In this document: one piece after another, positions 4,847 to 12,252 of the stretch
Numbering within the stretch: position 1 is the first letter of the stretch
How the letters are laid out: each line of letters begins with the position of its first letter
DNA from: Kaistella palustris DSM 21579
Lineage (GTDB): Bacteria > Bacteroidota > Bacteroidia > Flavobacteriales > Weeksellaceae
Direction: 5' to 3'
Assembly: GCF_000422265.1 (NCBI RefSeq)
Contig: NZ_KE383813.1
Coordinates: 173,919 to 237,918, forward strand
Length of the DNA: 64,000 nt
The notes under the pieces: model-generated
Told to the model about the DNA's origin: nothing
What the model saw: only the letters and a program-made list of their open reading frames with translations
Database searches by the model: none
Made by a program: the position numbers and the translations under genes

Positions 4847-6379
4847 TTAATTATTTAAATTTTTAAGGAAAATCTGGGCAACTTCAGCTGGAGATTTTTT
4901 CTCCACTTCCACTTCATAATTGAGTTGCTGCATTTTTTCCGTTGAAATTTTTCCATTCAGAGCGGAAAGCAATTTTTCAACTTCGGGATATTTTTTTGCA
5001 ATTTCATTTCTGATGATGATTCCCGCTTCATAATTGGGGAAATAATTTTTATCGTCTTTCAGAACTTTTAAATCTAAATGTTTTATTTGCGCGTCCGTTG
5101 TGAAAACATCAACCGCATCAATTTTTCCCTGCTCAAAAGCTTGATAACGAAGGTTGATATCCATTTCTTCCAGTTTTTTAAAGTTAAAAGGATAAATATT
5201 TATCAACCCCGGAAACGCATCACTTCTTTCGAAAAAATCAAATTCTGCCCCGAAAGTAAAGTCTGAACTTTTATCAGCTAATTCAGAAAAATTCGAAATA
5301 TCTAAATTTTTTTTAGAGATCGCCAAACCGTAAGTATTGTTGAATCCCAAAAGACCGAGCCATTTTAATTGAAACTGATTTTGGTATGTTTCATTTAAAT
5401 TACTAAAATCGATCAGATTATTTTCAGGCAACTTTTTTTTCAAAACATTGAGCCACGCTGTTCCGGAATATTCCACATAAATATCCAGATCACCGGACAA
5501 CATTGCAGGATGAATATTGGTGGTTCCGCCTCCAATTCCAAATTTACGAATGACTTTAATATCGGTATTATTCTCAATGGTTTGAGAAATAATTTCGCCC
5601 AAAATAAATTGTTCACTTGTCGGTTTCGAAGCAACAGTGATGGTTTTGGAATTATTTGAAGAAAATGGATTTTGGTAAAAAATAGCTGCAAAAGTGCAGA
5701 TCAAAACAAAAAGTGAAGAAAAAATGATCCTGTTTTTCTGAGTTCTGTTCGCGTTTTTAGAAATCACCCGGAGCAAACTTTCGTTCTTTTCAAACTGACC
5801 GATCCATTGATCACCCAAAATTGCAAACAGAGAAATCCCCAAAGATCCAGTCACAATTAATCCCGTATTCATCGTATTTAAACCCCGAAAAATTGCCTGA
5901 CCTAATCCTCCTGCACCAATCAATGCAGCCAATCCGGTCAAGGCAACAATCATGACGACGGTAATTCTTAAACCCGATAAAATGGAAGGTAAAGCGAGAG
6001 GAAAATAAATATTTTTAAAAACTTGAATTTGCGTTGAACCTAATCCTTCCGCAGCTTCAACTAATTGTAGCGGAACTTCCTTTAAACCGCTGTAAGTACT
6101 TCTGACAATAGGAAGTAATCCGTAAATAATTAAAACGATCAAGGCGTTTTTCAGTCCAATTCCGACTAAAGGAATCAATAAACCAAACATGGCAATTGAC
6201 GGAATGGTGTAGAGAAAATTGATTAATGGGAGAATTACTTTACGGCTTTTTGCTGAATAAAAAACAAAAATGCCCAGCGAAATACCCACAACAGTAACGG
6301 CCGTAAGCGAACCCAAAGAAAGCAAAAGATGTTCTGCAAGAAGGTTAAGAAAATACGTGCGTCGCTGCCAAAGATCCAT
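4847..6379 (-). CDS. Fused ABC permease and substrate-binding protein (OpuCB-CC / EgtU type)
   Basis: A 510-residue fusion. Residues ~15-205 are a BPD-type permease with 5-6 membrane segments and the coupling loop VEAAEGLGSTQIQVFKNI. After a linker with another membrane segment (~218-236), residues ~245-510 are a type II OpuAC-like binding domain: ITVASKPTSEQFILGEII, GGGTTNIHPAMLSGDLDIYVEYSGT, FFERSDAFPGL, DAVDVFTTDAQI. This tethers the solute receptor to the outer face of the inner membrane. The family transports glycine betaine, choline or carnitine; the closely related EgtU of streptococci and Helicobacter takes up ergothioneine and has the same fused layout. Substrate cannot be decided by eye. 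Confidence 0.85.
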   Translation of the reverse strand: MDLWQRRTYFLNLLAEHLLLSLGSLTAVTVVGISLGIFVFYSAKSRKVILPLINFLYTIPSIAMFGLLIPLVGIGLKNALIVLIIYGLLPIVRSTYSGLKEVPLQLVEAAEGLGSTQIQVFKNIYFPLALPSILSGLRITVVMIVALTGLAALIGAGGLGQAIFRGLNTMNTGLIVTGSLGISLFAILGDQWIGQFEKNESLLRVISKNANRTQKNRIIFSSLFVLICTFAAIFYQNPFSSNNSKTITVASKPTSEQFILGEIISQTIENNTDIKVIRKFGIGGGTTNIHPAMLSGDLDIYVEYSGTAWLNVLKKKLPENNLIDFSNLNETYQNQFQLKWLGLLGFNNTYGLAISKKNLDISNFSELADKSSDFTFGAEFDFFERSDAFPGLINIYPFNFKKLEEMDINLRYQAFEQGKIDAVDVFTTDAQIKHLDLKVLKDDKNYFPNYEAGIIIRNEIAKKYPEVEKLLSALNGKISTEKMQQLNYEVEVEKKSPAEVAQIFLKNLNN

Positions 6380-6523: not shown

Positions 6524-9500
6524 TTACATCATCTCCATTTTAAAACTCATACTTTCGATGACTTTTAAAATCGCTTCCGCGGTATCCATCGATGTCAAAC
6601 ACGGAACTCCGTTTTCTACAGAAGTTCTGCGGATTTGGAATCCATCTCTTTCGGATTGTTTTCCTTTGGTCATAGTGTTTACAATGTATTGAACTTTTCC
6701 GGTTTGAATTAGATCGATCAAATTAATTTCCGGATTTTCTTCTATTTTATAACCGATTTTCGTTCGGACTCCGTGTTCCTCAAAATAATTGGCGGTTCCT
6801 TCTGTTGCCCAGATTTTAAAACCAATTTCCTGAAATCTTCTGGCCAGGTCGCATGCTTCGGCTTTATGTTTATCTGCAACCGTGAATAAAATTGCACCGT
6901 GTAAAGGAACTTTTCTTCCTGCTCCGATCAATCCTTTATATAAAGCTTTTTCTAAGGTAATGTCTTTTCCCATTACTTCTCCTGTAGATTTCATTTCCGG
7001 TCCGAGTGAAATATCAACTCTTGTCAGTTTTGAAAATGAGAAAACCGGAACTTTCACAAAAACTCCGTCTTTTACCGGAGCCAAGCCGTTTTTGTATCCT
7101 AAATCTTTTAATTTTTGACCTAAAATCGCTTTTGTAGCTAAGTTTGCCATTGGAATTTCGGTAATTTTAGACAAGAAAGGAACAGTTCTACTCGATCTTG
7201 GATTTACCTCAATCACATAAACTCCGCCTTGATAAAGAACATATTGAATATTCATTAGACCAATGACATTCAATCCTTTTGCTAATCTTTCGGTATAATC
7301 TATTAAAGTTGCGATCTGATCAGCGTTAATATTTTGCGGCGGATAAACTGCAATGGAATCTCCGGAATGTACTCCGGCTCTTTCGATATGTTCCATAATT
7401 CCGGGAATCACGACGGTTTCGCCATCGGAAATCGCGTCAACTTCAACTTCTTTCCCGGTTAAATATCGGTCAATTAAAATCGGATGTTCAGAATTTTCTT
7501 TCACCGCATTCGTCATATAATGAGCGAGTTCCATTTCATCATATACAATTTCCATTGCTCTACCTCCCAAAACATAACTCGGACGAACCAAAACCGGAAA
7601 TCCGATTTCATTAGCAATAATTAATGCCTCTTCCTTCGTAAAACAGGTTTTTCCTAAAGGTTGCGGAATTCCCATTTCCTGAAGTGCAGCTTCAAATTTA
7701 TTCCTGTTTTCGGCGCGGTCTAAATCTTCCAGAGAAGTTCCTAAAATCTGAACGCCGTAAGAAGCCAGTTTATCCGCTAAATTAATGGCGGTTTGTCCAC
7801 CAAATTGCACTACGACACCTTTTGGTTTTTCCAGATCGATGATATTCATTACATCTTCTTCCGTTAAAGGTTCAAAATATAATTTATCGGAAATGGAAAA
7901 ATCCGTGGAAACCGTTTCCGGATTATTGTTAATGATGATGGCTTCGTAACCCAATTCTTTGATCGCCCAAACAGAATGAACAGTGGCGTAATCGAACTCG
8001 ACACCTTGTCCGATCCGAATTGGACCGGAACCGAGAACGATGATTTTTTCTTTATCTGAGGGAACACTTTCATTTTCTTCTTCGTAAGTTCCGTAGAAAT
8101 ATGGGGTTTCACTTTCAAATTCTGCGGCGCACGTATCGACCATCTTATAAACCGGCATTACTCCGTTTTCTTTCCTGAATTCGAAAATTTCCTTTTGAGT
8201 GGAATTCCATAAAGTTGCGATGCTTAAATCTGAAAAACCCAGTTTTTTTGCCTCAATTAAAATATGTTTTTTGAATGCGTTTGCCGCAATTACTTTTTCA
8301 AAATCGATGAGTTTTTTAATTTTCCAGATGAAGAATTTATCAATTTTGCTCCACTCTACAATTTTTTCCCAGTCGTAACCACGTCGCAAAGCATCACCGA
8401 TAATGAATAAACGCTCGTCATCACAAATACGGATTCTTCTTTCGATTTCTTCTTCGGTTAAAGCTGCGGCGTCTTTTGATTTTAAACCAATATGTCTTAA
8501 ACCAGTTTCCAAAGAACGAATGGCTTTTTGCAAAGATTCTTCAAAATTTCTTCCGATTGCCATCACTTCACCTGTTGCTTTCATTTGGGTAGAAAGTCGG
8601 CGATCTGCAGTTTCAAATTTATCGAAGGGAAAACGTGGAAATTTTGTCACCACATAATCCAAAGCAGGCTCAAAACAGGCGTAAGAAGTTCCCGTTACGG
8701 GATTCATGATTTCATCTAAAGTTAAACCAACCGCAATTTTTGCAGCAATTTTTGCAATCGGATAACCGGTTGCTTTACTTGCCAAAGCCGATGACCGCGA
8801 AACTCTTGGATTTACTTCAATAATATAATAATCGTAAGAATTAGGATCTAAAGCCAACTGAACATTACATCCTCCTTCAATTCCTAAAGCGCGAATAATT
8901 TTTAAGGAAGAATTTCTCAACATTTGATATTCCCGATCCGACAAAGTCTGCGAAGGCGCAACAACAATAGAATCTCCGGTATGAATTCCGACCGGATCGA
9001 TATTTTCCATATTACAGACGACGATGGCGTTGTCGTTTTTATCGCGCATCACTTCGTATTCAATTTCTTTGAAACCAGCGATGGATTTTTCGATCAAACA
9101 TTGACGAACAGGACTGTATTTGAGACCGAAACTTGTAATTTCTTTCAGTTCCTCATCATTATTTGCGATTCCGCCTCCAGTTCCGCCCATCGTAAAAGCC
9201 GGACGAACAATAACGGGATAACCTATTTTTTCCGCGAATTTTAAAGCGCCTTCAACATCATTTACAATATCAGAATCCGGAACAGGTTCGTTTAATTCGT
9301 GCATTAAATTACGGAACAAATCACGGTCTTCCGCTTGATTGATGGCGGAAAGTTTAGTTCCCAAAACTTCCACTTTACATTCCTCTAAAATGCCGGAATT
9401 TTGCAATTCTACGGCCATATTCAATCCAGTTTGTCCACCTAAAGTTGGCAAAAGTGCATCCGGACGTTCTTTGCGAATAATATGACTTACAAATTCAAGA

Positions 9501-9709
9501 GAAATCGGTTCAATGTAAACCTTGTCGGCAATTTCTACATCGGTCATAATCGTTGCGGGATTTGAGTTAATGAGAATTACTTTGTAGCCTTCTTCTCTCA
9601 AAGATAAGCAAGCCTGCGTTCCTGCGTAATCAAATTCTGCAGCCTGTCCGATGATGATTGGACCACTTCCGATAACGAGGATTGTTTTTATATCTGTACG
9701 TTTTGCCAT
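6524..9709 (-). CDS. carB: Carbamoyl-phosphate synthase large subunit
   Basis: A 1061-residue protein of normal length. It makes carbamoyl phosphate from ammonia (supplied by CarA), bicarbonate and two ATP, feeding pyrimidine and arginine synthesis in the cytoplasm. It shows the internal duplication of the family: first ATP-grasp half with [25 protein letters not shown] and a second half with [21 protein letters not shown]. Each half has an ATP-grasp segment ([36 protein letters not shown]) and a metal-binding IEVNPR motif. The C-terminal ~130 residues are the MGS-like allosteric domain. It starts two bases after the carA stop, last in pyrB-carA-carB. Confidence 0.97.
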
Positions 9710-9711
9710 CT

Positions 9712-10800
9712 TTACTTAGATAATTTTTTAGATTTAAATTCTTCCATTAACTCAATAAATTCATCAAACAAATAATTTGCATCTTCCGGTCCCGGACTTG
9801 CTTCCGGATGGTATTGAACAGAAAAGCAAGGATGAATTTTATGTTTCAAACCTTCGTTTGTTCGGTCATTCAAGGCGATGTGCGTTTCTTCTAAATCGGT
9901 GTTCGTCAAAGATTTCTGATCGACAGCATAACCGTGATTTTGTGAGGTGATCGCGACTTTATTTTTCTTCAGATCCAACACAGGATGATTTCCACCACGA
10001 TGTCCGAATTTTAATTTAAAAGTTCTGGCACCACATGCTAAGGCAATCAACTGATGTCCCAAACAGATTCCAAAAATGGGAACTTTACCTAAAAGTTTCT
10101 GAATCATTTCGATAGCACCTTTTACATCTTCCGGATCTCCGGGACCGTTGGAAAGCATAACTCCATCCGGATTGATCAACAGAATTTCTTCCGCGGTAGT
10201 ATCCTGAGAAACTACGATAACGTCGCAATCTCTCTGAGCGAGTTCACGTAAAATCCCGAGTTTTGAACCGTAATCAACTAAGACCACTTTCAAACCTCTT
10301 CCCGGATTTGCATACGGTGTTTTGGTAGAAACCTGGGCAACCTGATCGGTGGCTAAAACAGAGGCTTTTAAATTTTCGATTACTAAATTTTCATCAGCAT
10401 CTTCATTTACTATTTTACCTTTTACAACGCCTGAATTTCGAAGAACTCTGGTTAATCTTCTGGTATCGATTCCTGAGATTCCGGAAAGATTTCGCTTTTG
10501 GAAAAATTCGTCCAGATCCATTTGAGTTCTAAAGTTTGATGGAAAATCACAGACTTCTTTTACGATCAAACCTTTTATTGCAGGTTCGATACACTCAAAA
10601 TCGTCGCGGTTAATTCCGTAATTTCCGATGAGCGGATAGGTCATACAAACGATTTGCCCGCAGTAGGAAGGATCGGAAATCAATTCCTGATAACCGGTCA
10701 TTCCGGTATTGAAAACGATTTCGCCTTCAATGTCCTGCTCGGCTCCGAAACCTTTTCCGTGGAACACTTCGCCGGATTCTAATATTAATTTCTTTTTCAT
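9712..10800 (-). CDS. carA: Carbamoyl-phosphate synthase small (glutaminase) subunit
   Basis: A 362-residue glutamine amidotransferase subunit that releases ammonia for CarB. The N-terminal CPSase_sm domain ([19 protein letters not shown] ... [16 protein letters not shown]) is followed by a class I GATase with nucleophile Cys246 (FGICLGHQ) and the partner His331-Glu333 ([10 protein letters not shown]). I start at 10800 ([11 protein letters not shown]), where family similarity begins, not at 10839. A 139-base gap with TCAACTGTCAA-like repeats separates it from pyrB; no terminator is visible there, so transcription probably continues from pyrB. Confidence 0.96.
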
Positions 10801-10939
10801 TTTTGTTTTTTTGATTGAGAACAATGATCCATGAACCAAGATGCAAGGCCTTTGACTTGTTTTAACTTTCCGTCAATTGTCAACTGTCAATTATTAACTG
10901 TCGACTATTTGGCTCCTGGTTCCTTGTTCTGAAAGTCTT

Positions 10940-11836
10940 TTATTCAAACTCAAACCCCTTTGCTTCCAGCGCAGTCTTTAGAATTGCCATTCTGGCGAAC
11001 ACACCGTTTTCCATCTGTTTGAAAATTCGCGACCGTTTACATTCGACCAGTTCATCATCAATCTCTACGCCTCTGTTGATCGGAGCTGGGTGCATAATGA
11101 CAGCCCCTTTTTTCATTGCTTTTTCGCGTTCCCTGGTCAGACCAAACTGCCTGTGGTATTTATCGGAAGAGAATTTTAACTTCTCAGTGCTTTCGTGCCT
11201 TTCGTGTTGAATTCTGAGGAGCATCAGAACATCGACTTCTTTAATCAGATCATCGATCGACAGATAAGTTCCGTTTATGATTGTGCCTTCGTCAAACCAT
11301 TGTTCGGGACCGGAAAAGAAAACTTTCGCACCGAGTTTTCTCAGAACTTCGGCATTAGAATTTGCAACTCTGCTGTGTTTCACGTCGCCCACGATGCCTA
11401 CTTTTAAACCTTCGAATTTGCCGAACTCCTGTTGAATGGTCATTAAATCCAAGATATTTTGAGAAGGATGGTTACCGGTTCCATCGCCGCCGTTGATGAC
11501 CGCCATATCGATTCCCTCAAACTCATCGTAAAATTTTTCCTTTTTATGCCGGATCACACAAAGATCAATTCCGATGCTTTTCAGGGTTCTCACTGTGTCA
11601 TATAGTGACTCGCCTTTATTTACTGAACTTGCGGAAATATCAAAAGGAACCACATTCAGCCCTAACTTTCTTTCGGCCACGTCGAAACTCGTTTTGGTTC
11701 TGGTACTGTCTTCAAAAAAAAGATTGGCCACATAAATTTCCTGTTTCGCCTTTAATACTTTGCCTTTGGAAAAAGCGTCGGCTTGCTGAAGCAATTTGTG
11801 AATTTTCTCAACGGATAGATCAGATGTTCTAAGCAT
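10940..11836 (-). CDS. pyrB: Aspartate carbamoyltransferase catalytic chain
   Basis: A 298-residue enzyme joining carbamoyl phosphate and aspartate, the committed step of pyrimidine synthesis. The carbamoyl-phosphate loop is STRTKTSF (~45-52), with the second loop SSVNKGESLYDT, the GDVKHSRVANSN motif, the aspartate-binding LRIQHERH and HPAPINRGVEIDD. The sequence reads closer to the regulatory-subunit-free Bacillus type than to the E. coli type, and no pyrI follows. It is the first large gene of pyrB-carA-carB. Its start lies 11 bases downstream of a short leader reading frame that passes through a terminator hairpin, implying attenuation control. Confidence 0.95.
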   Translation of the reverse strand: MLRTSDLSVEKIHKLLQQADAFSKGKVLKAKQEIYVANLFFEDSTRTKTSFDVAERKLGLNVVPFDISASSVNKGESLYDTVRTLKSIGIDLCVIRHKKEKFYDEFEGIDMAVINGGDGTGNHPSQNILDLMTIQQEFGKFEGLKVGIVGDVKHSRVANSNAEVLRKLGAKVFFSGPEQWFDEGTIINGTYLSIDDLIKEVDVLMLLRIQHERHESTEKLKFSSDKYHRQFGLTREREKAMKKGAVIMHPAPINRGVEIDDELVECKRSRIFKQMENGVFARMAILKTALEAKGFEFE

Positions 11837-11847
11837 AATTTTAATTT

Positions 11848-11955
11848 TTAATCAAAAAAAAACGAAGCCAAAAAAGCTTCGTTATCATAATAAATATCGG
11901 TGATGTCGGCATTGCTGCCCTTATGTAAATCGTCTAATGGAAATATTCTTTTCAT
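11848..11955 (-). CDS. Putative pyr operon leader peptide (35 aa) spanning the attenuator
   Basis: ATG at 11955-11953, 35 codons, TAA at 11850-11848. The peptide begins MKRIFPLDDLHKGS and ends ASFFFD. The last third of the frame is the terminator hairpin itself: codons for EAFLASF cover both stem arms, and FFF is encoded by the U tract. The stop lies 11 bases before the pyrB ATG. A ribosome translating close behind RNA polymerase would therefore block the hairpin, the same logic as E. coli pyrL/pyrBI attenuation under low UTP. Start: it sits 6 bases after a TATCTTTG -7 element, so the mRNA may be nearly leaderless. That it is translated is inference. Confidence 0.6.
   Translation of the reverse strand: MKRIFPLDDLHKGSNADITDIYYDNEAFLASFFFD
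11853..11883 (-). terminator. Intrinsic terminator / attenuator in the pyrB leader
   Basis: On the minus strand: AACGAAGC (11883-11876), loop TTTTTTG, GCTTCGTT (11868-11861), then seven further T (11860-11854). It is a compact G/C stem with a U-rich loop and tail, ending 17 bases before the pyrB start and lying inside the leader reading frame. Confidence 0.75.
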
Positions 11956-11961
11956 TAATTG

Positions 11962-11969
11962 CAAAGATA
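11962..11969 (-). promoter_or_regulatory. -7 element of the pyr operon promoter
   Basis: TATCTTTG on the minus strand fits TAnnTTTG exactly. No clear TTG is found ~19 bases upstream (GTAGTTTCC lies there). The distance of 6 bases to the leader ATG implies a very short or absent 5' leader. Confidence 0.5.
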
Positions 11970-12130
11970 TTATTTTTTTGGAAACTACGGGTTTTTTTCC
12001 GGTTTAAATGAAGATAAATATAAAGATTGGTTGGCTGTGTCTGATAAAAATTGCTCTTAGCAGATGTCACTTTCAATTAAAATCGTAAATTTCGGGTAAG
12101 TGGAACCTCGGTTTTATAACCGCCCGTAAC

Positions 12131-12220
12131 CAGCCCTGATAGCAGCGGATACCCCGCAGCAAGCGCGGGATAAAGCCCTGGCGCGAGGAGTATGAGCGGA
12201 TAGCAGGTTCCCGGCTCCTG
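12131..12220 (+). ncRNA. Candidate structured RNA resembling the Flavo-1 type intergenic motif
   Basis: A G/C-rich island in an A/T-rich gap. It reads CAGCCCTGATAGCAGCGGAT, then a CCCGC / GCGGG hairpin (~12153-12169), then GAGCGGATAGCAGG and GGCTCCTG near the end. The AGCCCTGAT ... AGCGGATAGC ... GGCTCC framework recurs between genes in many flavobacteria and matches what I remember of the Flavo-1 RNA motif. It ends ~32 bases before acs and could be an independent small RNA or a 5' leader element. The name rests on memory, not a covariance search. Confidence 0.45.
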
Positions 12221-12252
12221 ATAAAACATTAAGATTAAAATACGGATAGACT

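Follow-up and report, generated by a model that had tools for sequence, protein, structure and literature searches.

A conserved leader upstream of pyrB in the Weeksellaceae with the layout of a translation-coupled pyrBI-type attenuator

The window, the whole stretch of 64,000 nucleotides of Kaistella palustris DNA that was analysed, carries pyrB, carA and carB in that order on its minus strand, with a short leader in front of pyrB. The initial annotation had read this leader as a translation-coupled attenuator resembling that of pyrBI and working without PyrR, and its account of the individual parts is borne out by the sequence. The leader ATG (11955-11953, minus strand) lies 6 nt past the -7 element TATCTTTG (11969-11962) and opens a frame of 35 sense codons, encoding the peptide MKRIFPLDDLHKGSNADITDIYYDNEAFLASFFFD, that contains the terminator together with its U-run and ends at a TAA (11850-11848), 11 nt before the pyrB ATG at 11836. 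The features of the locus are these:

11962 to 11969, minus strand: -7 box TATCTTTG of a Bacteroidota sigma-A promoter (from the sequence)
11956 to 11957, minus strand: predicted transcription start and 2-nt 5′ UTR of a near-leaderless mRNA (from the -12 to -5 placement of the box)
11848 to 11955, minus strand: leader reading frame, 35 codons plus TAA (from the sequence; frame open across genera)
11926 to 11944, minus strand: conserved leader segment TTTCCATTAGACGATTTAC (low entropy within Kaistella)
11908 to 11919, minus strand: putative pause hairpin GGCA-GCAA-TGCC (best local hairpin compared with shuffles)
11884 to 11907, minus strand: U-rich, putatively UTP-sensitive pause region CGATATTTATTATGAT (U enrichment)
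about 11854 to 11883, minus strand: intrinsic terminator AACGAAGC-TTTTTTG-GCTTCGTT and U tract (from sequence and fold)
10940 to 11836, minus strand: pyrB, aspartate carbamoyltransferase (NF002032, above cut-off)
9712 to 10839, minus strand: carA, carbamoyl-phosphate synthase small subunit (profile match beginning near residue 14)
6524 to 9709, minus strand: carB, carbamoyl-phosphate synthase large subunit (profile match)

Because the profile match to carA begins only near residue 14, the true start of this gene is probably internal to the called ORF. Two other observations concern the surroundings of the operon. Between the leader promoter and acs lies a GC-rich intergenic patch (12077-12230), short pieces of which recur with 72-93% identity at four further sites of the genome, like a dispersed repeat. 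At 4847-6379, a single ORF fuses a ProW-like ABC-transporter permease with an OsmF-like substrate-binding domain of the glycine-betaine type.

The leader does not follow a general design in this genome. When both strands of the window were searched for TAnnTTTG followed after 4-8 nt by an ATG and a terminator, no second place besides the pyrB leader was found. Apart from this leader, a similar pattern search of the whole genome returned some 14 raw matches; among those listed, promoter box, open frame and terminator never occur together. The pyrB leader is thus the sole complete layout found there.

In Flavobacterium psychrophilum, the TAnnTTTG box occupies positions -12 to -5 (PMC9723704), and on that basis transcription in Kaistella is predicted to begin some 2 nt ahead of the leader ATG. 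With so short a 5′ UTR, the transcript should be nearly leaderless. Near-leaderless mRNAs account for only 5.5% of the mRNAs of F. psychrophilum (PMC9723704).

The DNA upstream of pyrB was compared in 80 named relatives and about 30 more Weeksellaceae genomes. A search with the leader peptide found matches in 34 of 36 Kaistella genomes, and in 23 genera of the family the parts ahead of pyrB come in an identical order, namely, promoter, ATG 5-7 nt on, hairpin, an AU-rich motif near ACAATATTTATT, terminator, and pyrB itself. The TAnnTTTG box stands 5-7 nt ahead of the leader ATG in all analysed leaders but those of genus g17, and the 5′ arm of the terminator is usually ACGAAG. This layout is not a product of chance and is conserved across the family.

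Some genera depart from it. In genus g4 (L152), about 125 nt separate the attenuator from pyrB. The nine genomes of genus g17 (L176, L177, L248-L254) carry a different, longer leader about 200 nt upstream of pyrB, with a terminator of another sequence (AAACATCTT-loop-AAGATGTTT) and, in eight of the nine, an open frame of 137-177 nt running into or through it; this leader may be a second version of the attenuator. Genera g10, g19, g22, g28, and g29 gave no pyrB match at E 1e-40, and these Weeksellaceae may either lack de novo pyrimidine synthesis or use a very different enzyme.

The reading frame was tested with one leader per genus and an expectation drawn from dinucleotide shuffles. In 22 of 23 genera, no stop interrupts the frame until 12 nt or less from the terminator, where 7.5 such genera would be expected (P 1.6e-10); the +2 frame reaches as far in only 6 of the 23. 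The frame was likewise open in all 30 members of a wider, partly overlapping set of leaders. The commonest stop, found in 17 of 30 leaders, comes one base before the stem, so that its UAA overlaps the stem foot. Passage of the frame through the terminator, described in the initial annotation, is real in the window species and a few others, which form a minority; as a conserved feature it does not hold, and what is conserved is a frame without stops as far as the terminator. The same annotation had regarded stops within the leaders of close relatives as evidence against an attenuator. Such stops are indeed present in most of them, but in Kaistella they fall only 0-7 nt before the stem, and this expectation has to be reworded. 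The distant genus g4 is the exception, its leader stop lying 16 nt before the stem.

The frame had also been expected to persist through synonymous changes. Persistence was found; the synonymous bias was not, for within Kaistella there are 6 synonymous and 35 non-synonymous codon variants, where a ratio of about 17:75 is expected. Leader peptides diverge strongly between genera, and single-base shifts between species alter the frame, which then meets a new stop at the same place or runs through (L010, L047). Conservation of the peptide as a proof of coding was rejected, as the synonymous bias is lacking within Kaistella. An open frame without such a bias points to the act of translation, and from these patterns it appears that translation itself, rather than the peptide, is under selection. 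The segment TTTCCATTAGACGATTTAC (11944-11926) is highly conserved within Kaistella but only weakly beyond it, again without synonymous bias. This feature is left unexplained by the attenuator reading, and we count it against that reading.

The best-conserved structure besides the terminator is a small hairpin that the initial annotation had missed. In the window, it is GGCA-GCAA-TGCC (11919-11908), the best local hairpin, and 1 of 60 shuffles gave one equally good. A hairpin lies ahead of the AU motif in nearly all leaders and mostly beats most shuffles. Its stems differ by genus (GGCA/TGCC, GGGCG/CGCCC, ATGGCT/AGCCAT, and TCTGGT/ACCGGA) with the pairing kept, and paired changes are also seen inside Kaistella, for example, GGTA/TACC and GGCG/CGCC. 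Since the MAFFT alignment puts the hairpins of different genera out of register, they were assessed by position and by shuffles.

Beyond the hairpin, the share of U among 30 leaders is 0.63-0.87 between +10 and +16, counted from the 3′ end of the hairpin, except for 0.57 at +11. The linker as a whole has a U share of 0.50, and the 5′ portion of the frame one of 0.32. The same region is also A-rich and the genomes are AT-rich, which counts against taking it for a pause region. Across genera, the AU motif is found in each of the three possible frames (16, 7, and 4 cases), so its nucleotides are kept rather than the residues they would encode. For E. coli pyrL, the part played by the hairpin in pausing has been doubted (PMC9291695).

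That control is exerted without PyrR, as had been suggested, is supported by profile searches. None of 120 Weeksellaceae genomes has a PyrR above the NF003549 cut-off, and B. subtilis was among the control genomes detected by the same search. The seven PRT-domain matches of the present genome were assigned to other enzymes by sequence and length. All 20 genomes sampled from the order's other families have a pyrR-like frame upstream of pyrB, ending no more than 12 nt away from it, and the three of these 20 outgroup genes that were run against NF003549 scored 166-177 bits against a cut-off of 138. The Weeksellaceae seem to have swapped one attenuator for another, the distribution of PyrR suggesting the direction of the exchange.

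Textbooks illustrate gene control through the coupling of transcription to translation with the pyrBI operon, whose mechanism was established in enteric bacteria. Attenuation of this kind is the simplest account here, and we consider it quite probable that the pyrB leader of the Weeksellaceae is a UTP-sensing, translation-coupled attenuator of this type, standing where sister families have PyrR. The pyrBI-like logic put forward in the initial annotation is supported by comparison, through the layout shared by 23 genera, the open frame and the U enrichment; at the level of sequence, such comparison also establishes the anatomy, the near-leaderless placement, the stop position, the hairpin, and the absence of PyrR. 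UTP as the signal is what we infer from the U-rich putative pause region, and pausing and ribosome coupling are likewise inferred.

In this mechanism, RNA polymerase would start about 2 nt before the AUG, and a ribosome would load onto the near-leaderless transcript while the polymerase makes the small hairpin and then meets the U-rich stretch 10-16 nt on. When UTP is scarce, the polymerase would pause in that stretch and the ribosome would catch up. Once the polymerase resumes, the ribosome would arrive at the end of the frame, a point next to the terminator stem in most species and beyond it in the window species. There it would cover the 5′ arm of the terminator and prevent it from forming, and pyrB-carA-carB would be transcribed. 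When UTP is plentiful, the polymerase would leave the ribosome behind, and termination would follow. Where the stop lies 0-7 nt before the stem, as in Kaistella, the terminating ribosome should still block the terminator. In E. coli, moving a terminator to 5 bp after a stop codon lowered its efficiency from about 90% to under 10% (PMC4824070).

A different role for the same elements would be that of a riboswitch or protein-binding leader, in which a ligand, either a pyrimidine or an RNA-binding protein, recognises the hairpin plus ACAAUAUUUAUU and decides the fate of the terminator, the frame being incidental. The hairpin and the AU motif are conserved as nucleotides family-wide, and a conserved segment also lies upstream of the hairpin. 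However, the open frame in 22 of 23 genera and the ATG at a fixed place would be left unexplained, the hairpin is smaller than typical aptamers and constant in neither sequence nor length, and PyrR is absent. Rfam models gave no match at the gathering score, just chance-level matches with E near 0.7, and a strong antiterminator was sought and not found, the alternative pairing of the terminator arm having a mean probability of 0.29 in 40 leaders. We regard this explanation as unlikely. It is also conceivable that the nascent chain is an arrest peptide which, perhaps through a C-terminal N-I-Y-F-I, stalls the ribosome upon pyrimidine and so blocks the terminator. Similar residues (NNIYFI, NNIFYI, DIYLF) do end many leaders just before the stem. 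Given that genera differ in the frame in which they read the AU motif, all three being used, that the final residues of some leaders are unrelated, and that no synonymous bias is seen, we think this very improbable.

Still less credence can be given to an attenuator like those of trp or his, where the ribosome would stall at regulatory codons and let an antiterminator form. A leader peptide and a terminator are present, and for F. psychrophilum such leaders have been proposed ahead of amino-acid operons (PMC9723704), which counts for it; against it, the pyrB leaders contain no run of a single codon, their peptides differ between genera, there is no conserved antiterminator, and the stop abuts the terminator, whereas in known amino-acid attenuators the terminator lies more than 20 bp past the leader stop (PMC4824070). 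The initial annotation had itself named a further possibility, that a conserved upstream gene merely ends at this terminator. Intergenic terminators are common, but here a promoter and a conserved ATG stand immediately upstream, and the layout is maintained in 23 genera. The neighbour acs is divergent, and its place is not conserved (within 3 kb of pyrB in just 7 of 80 named relatives), whereas carA follows pyrB in 80 of 80. The terminator of an upstream gene is therefore excluded, and the explanation in its broader form, which includes a fixed partial terminator without regulation, has next to no probability.

Returning to the UTP-sensing attenuator, we favour on balance the wider view that the family does without the PyrR control of its sisters and has instead a near-leaderless, protein-free UTP sensor made up of ribosome and RNA polymerase, of which genus g17 would carry a second, independently built version. 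If this is true, Bacteroidota couple transcription tightly to translation at this operon. In the literature searched, which left most subscription journals outside, no earlier description of such a leader was found.

The proposed leader shares features with three known systems. With the trp, his, and thr attenuators, it has in common a leader peptide and a terminator; it differs in having neither regulatory codons nor a conserved antiterminator, and in a stop that adjoins the terminator. With PyrR attenuators, it shares a terminator that controls transcription of the pyr operon. In the sampled sister families, pyrB has a PyrR-type gene immediately before it; the Weeksellaceae, without a detected PyrR, have a reading frame in its stead.

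The closest likeness is to E. coli pyrBI and its leader pyrL, where promoter, short ORF, hairpin, U run, terminator, an ORF end at or beyond the terminator, and pyrB follow one another in the same way. In E. coli K-12 pyrL, the hairpin spans nt 32-50, a UUU follows 11 nt later, and the terminator stem begins at nt 88; the corresponding values in Weeksellaceae leaders are about 36 for the hairpin, a median of about 12 for the U's, and about 72 for the terminator. The Weeksellaceae operon differs from pyrBI in that its 5′ UTR is predicted to measure about 2 nt, its leader ORF is shorter, and the stop is mostly at the terminator foot rather than past it, the window species running through as E. 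coli does. Its hairpin is maintained in different sequences across genera, and carAB belongs to the operon, with no pyrI beside pyrB. Because the phylum is different and no sequence similarity was noticed, the likeness to E. coli is probably convergent. The same layout in another phylum, near-leaderless and apparently where PyrR was lost, suggests that this device evolves repeatedly.
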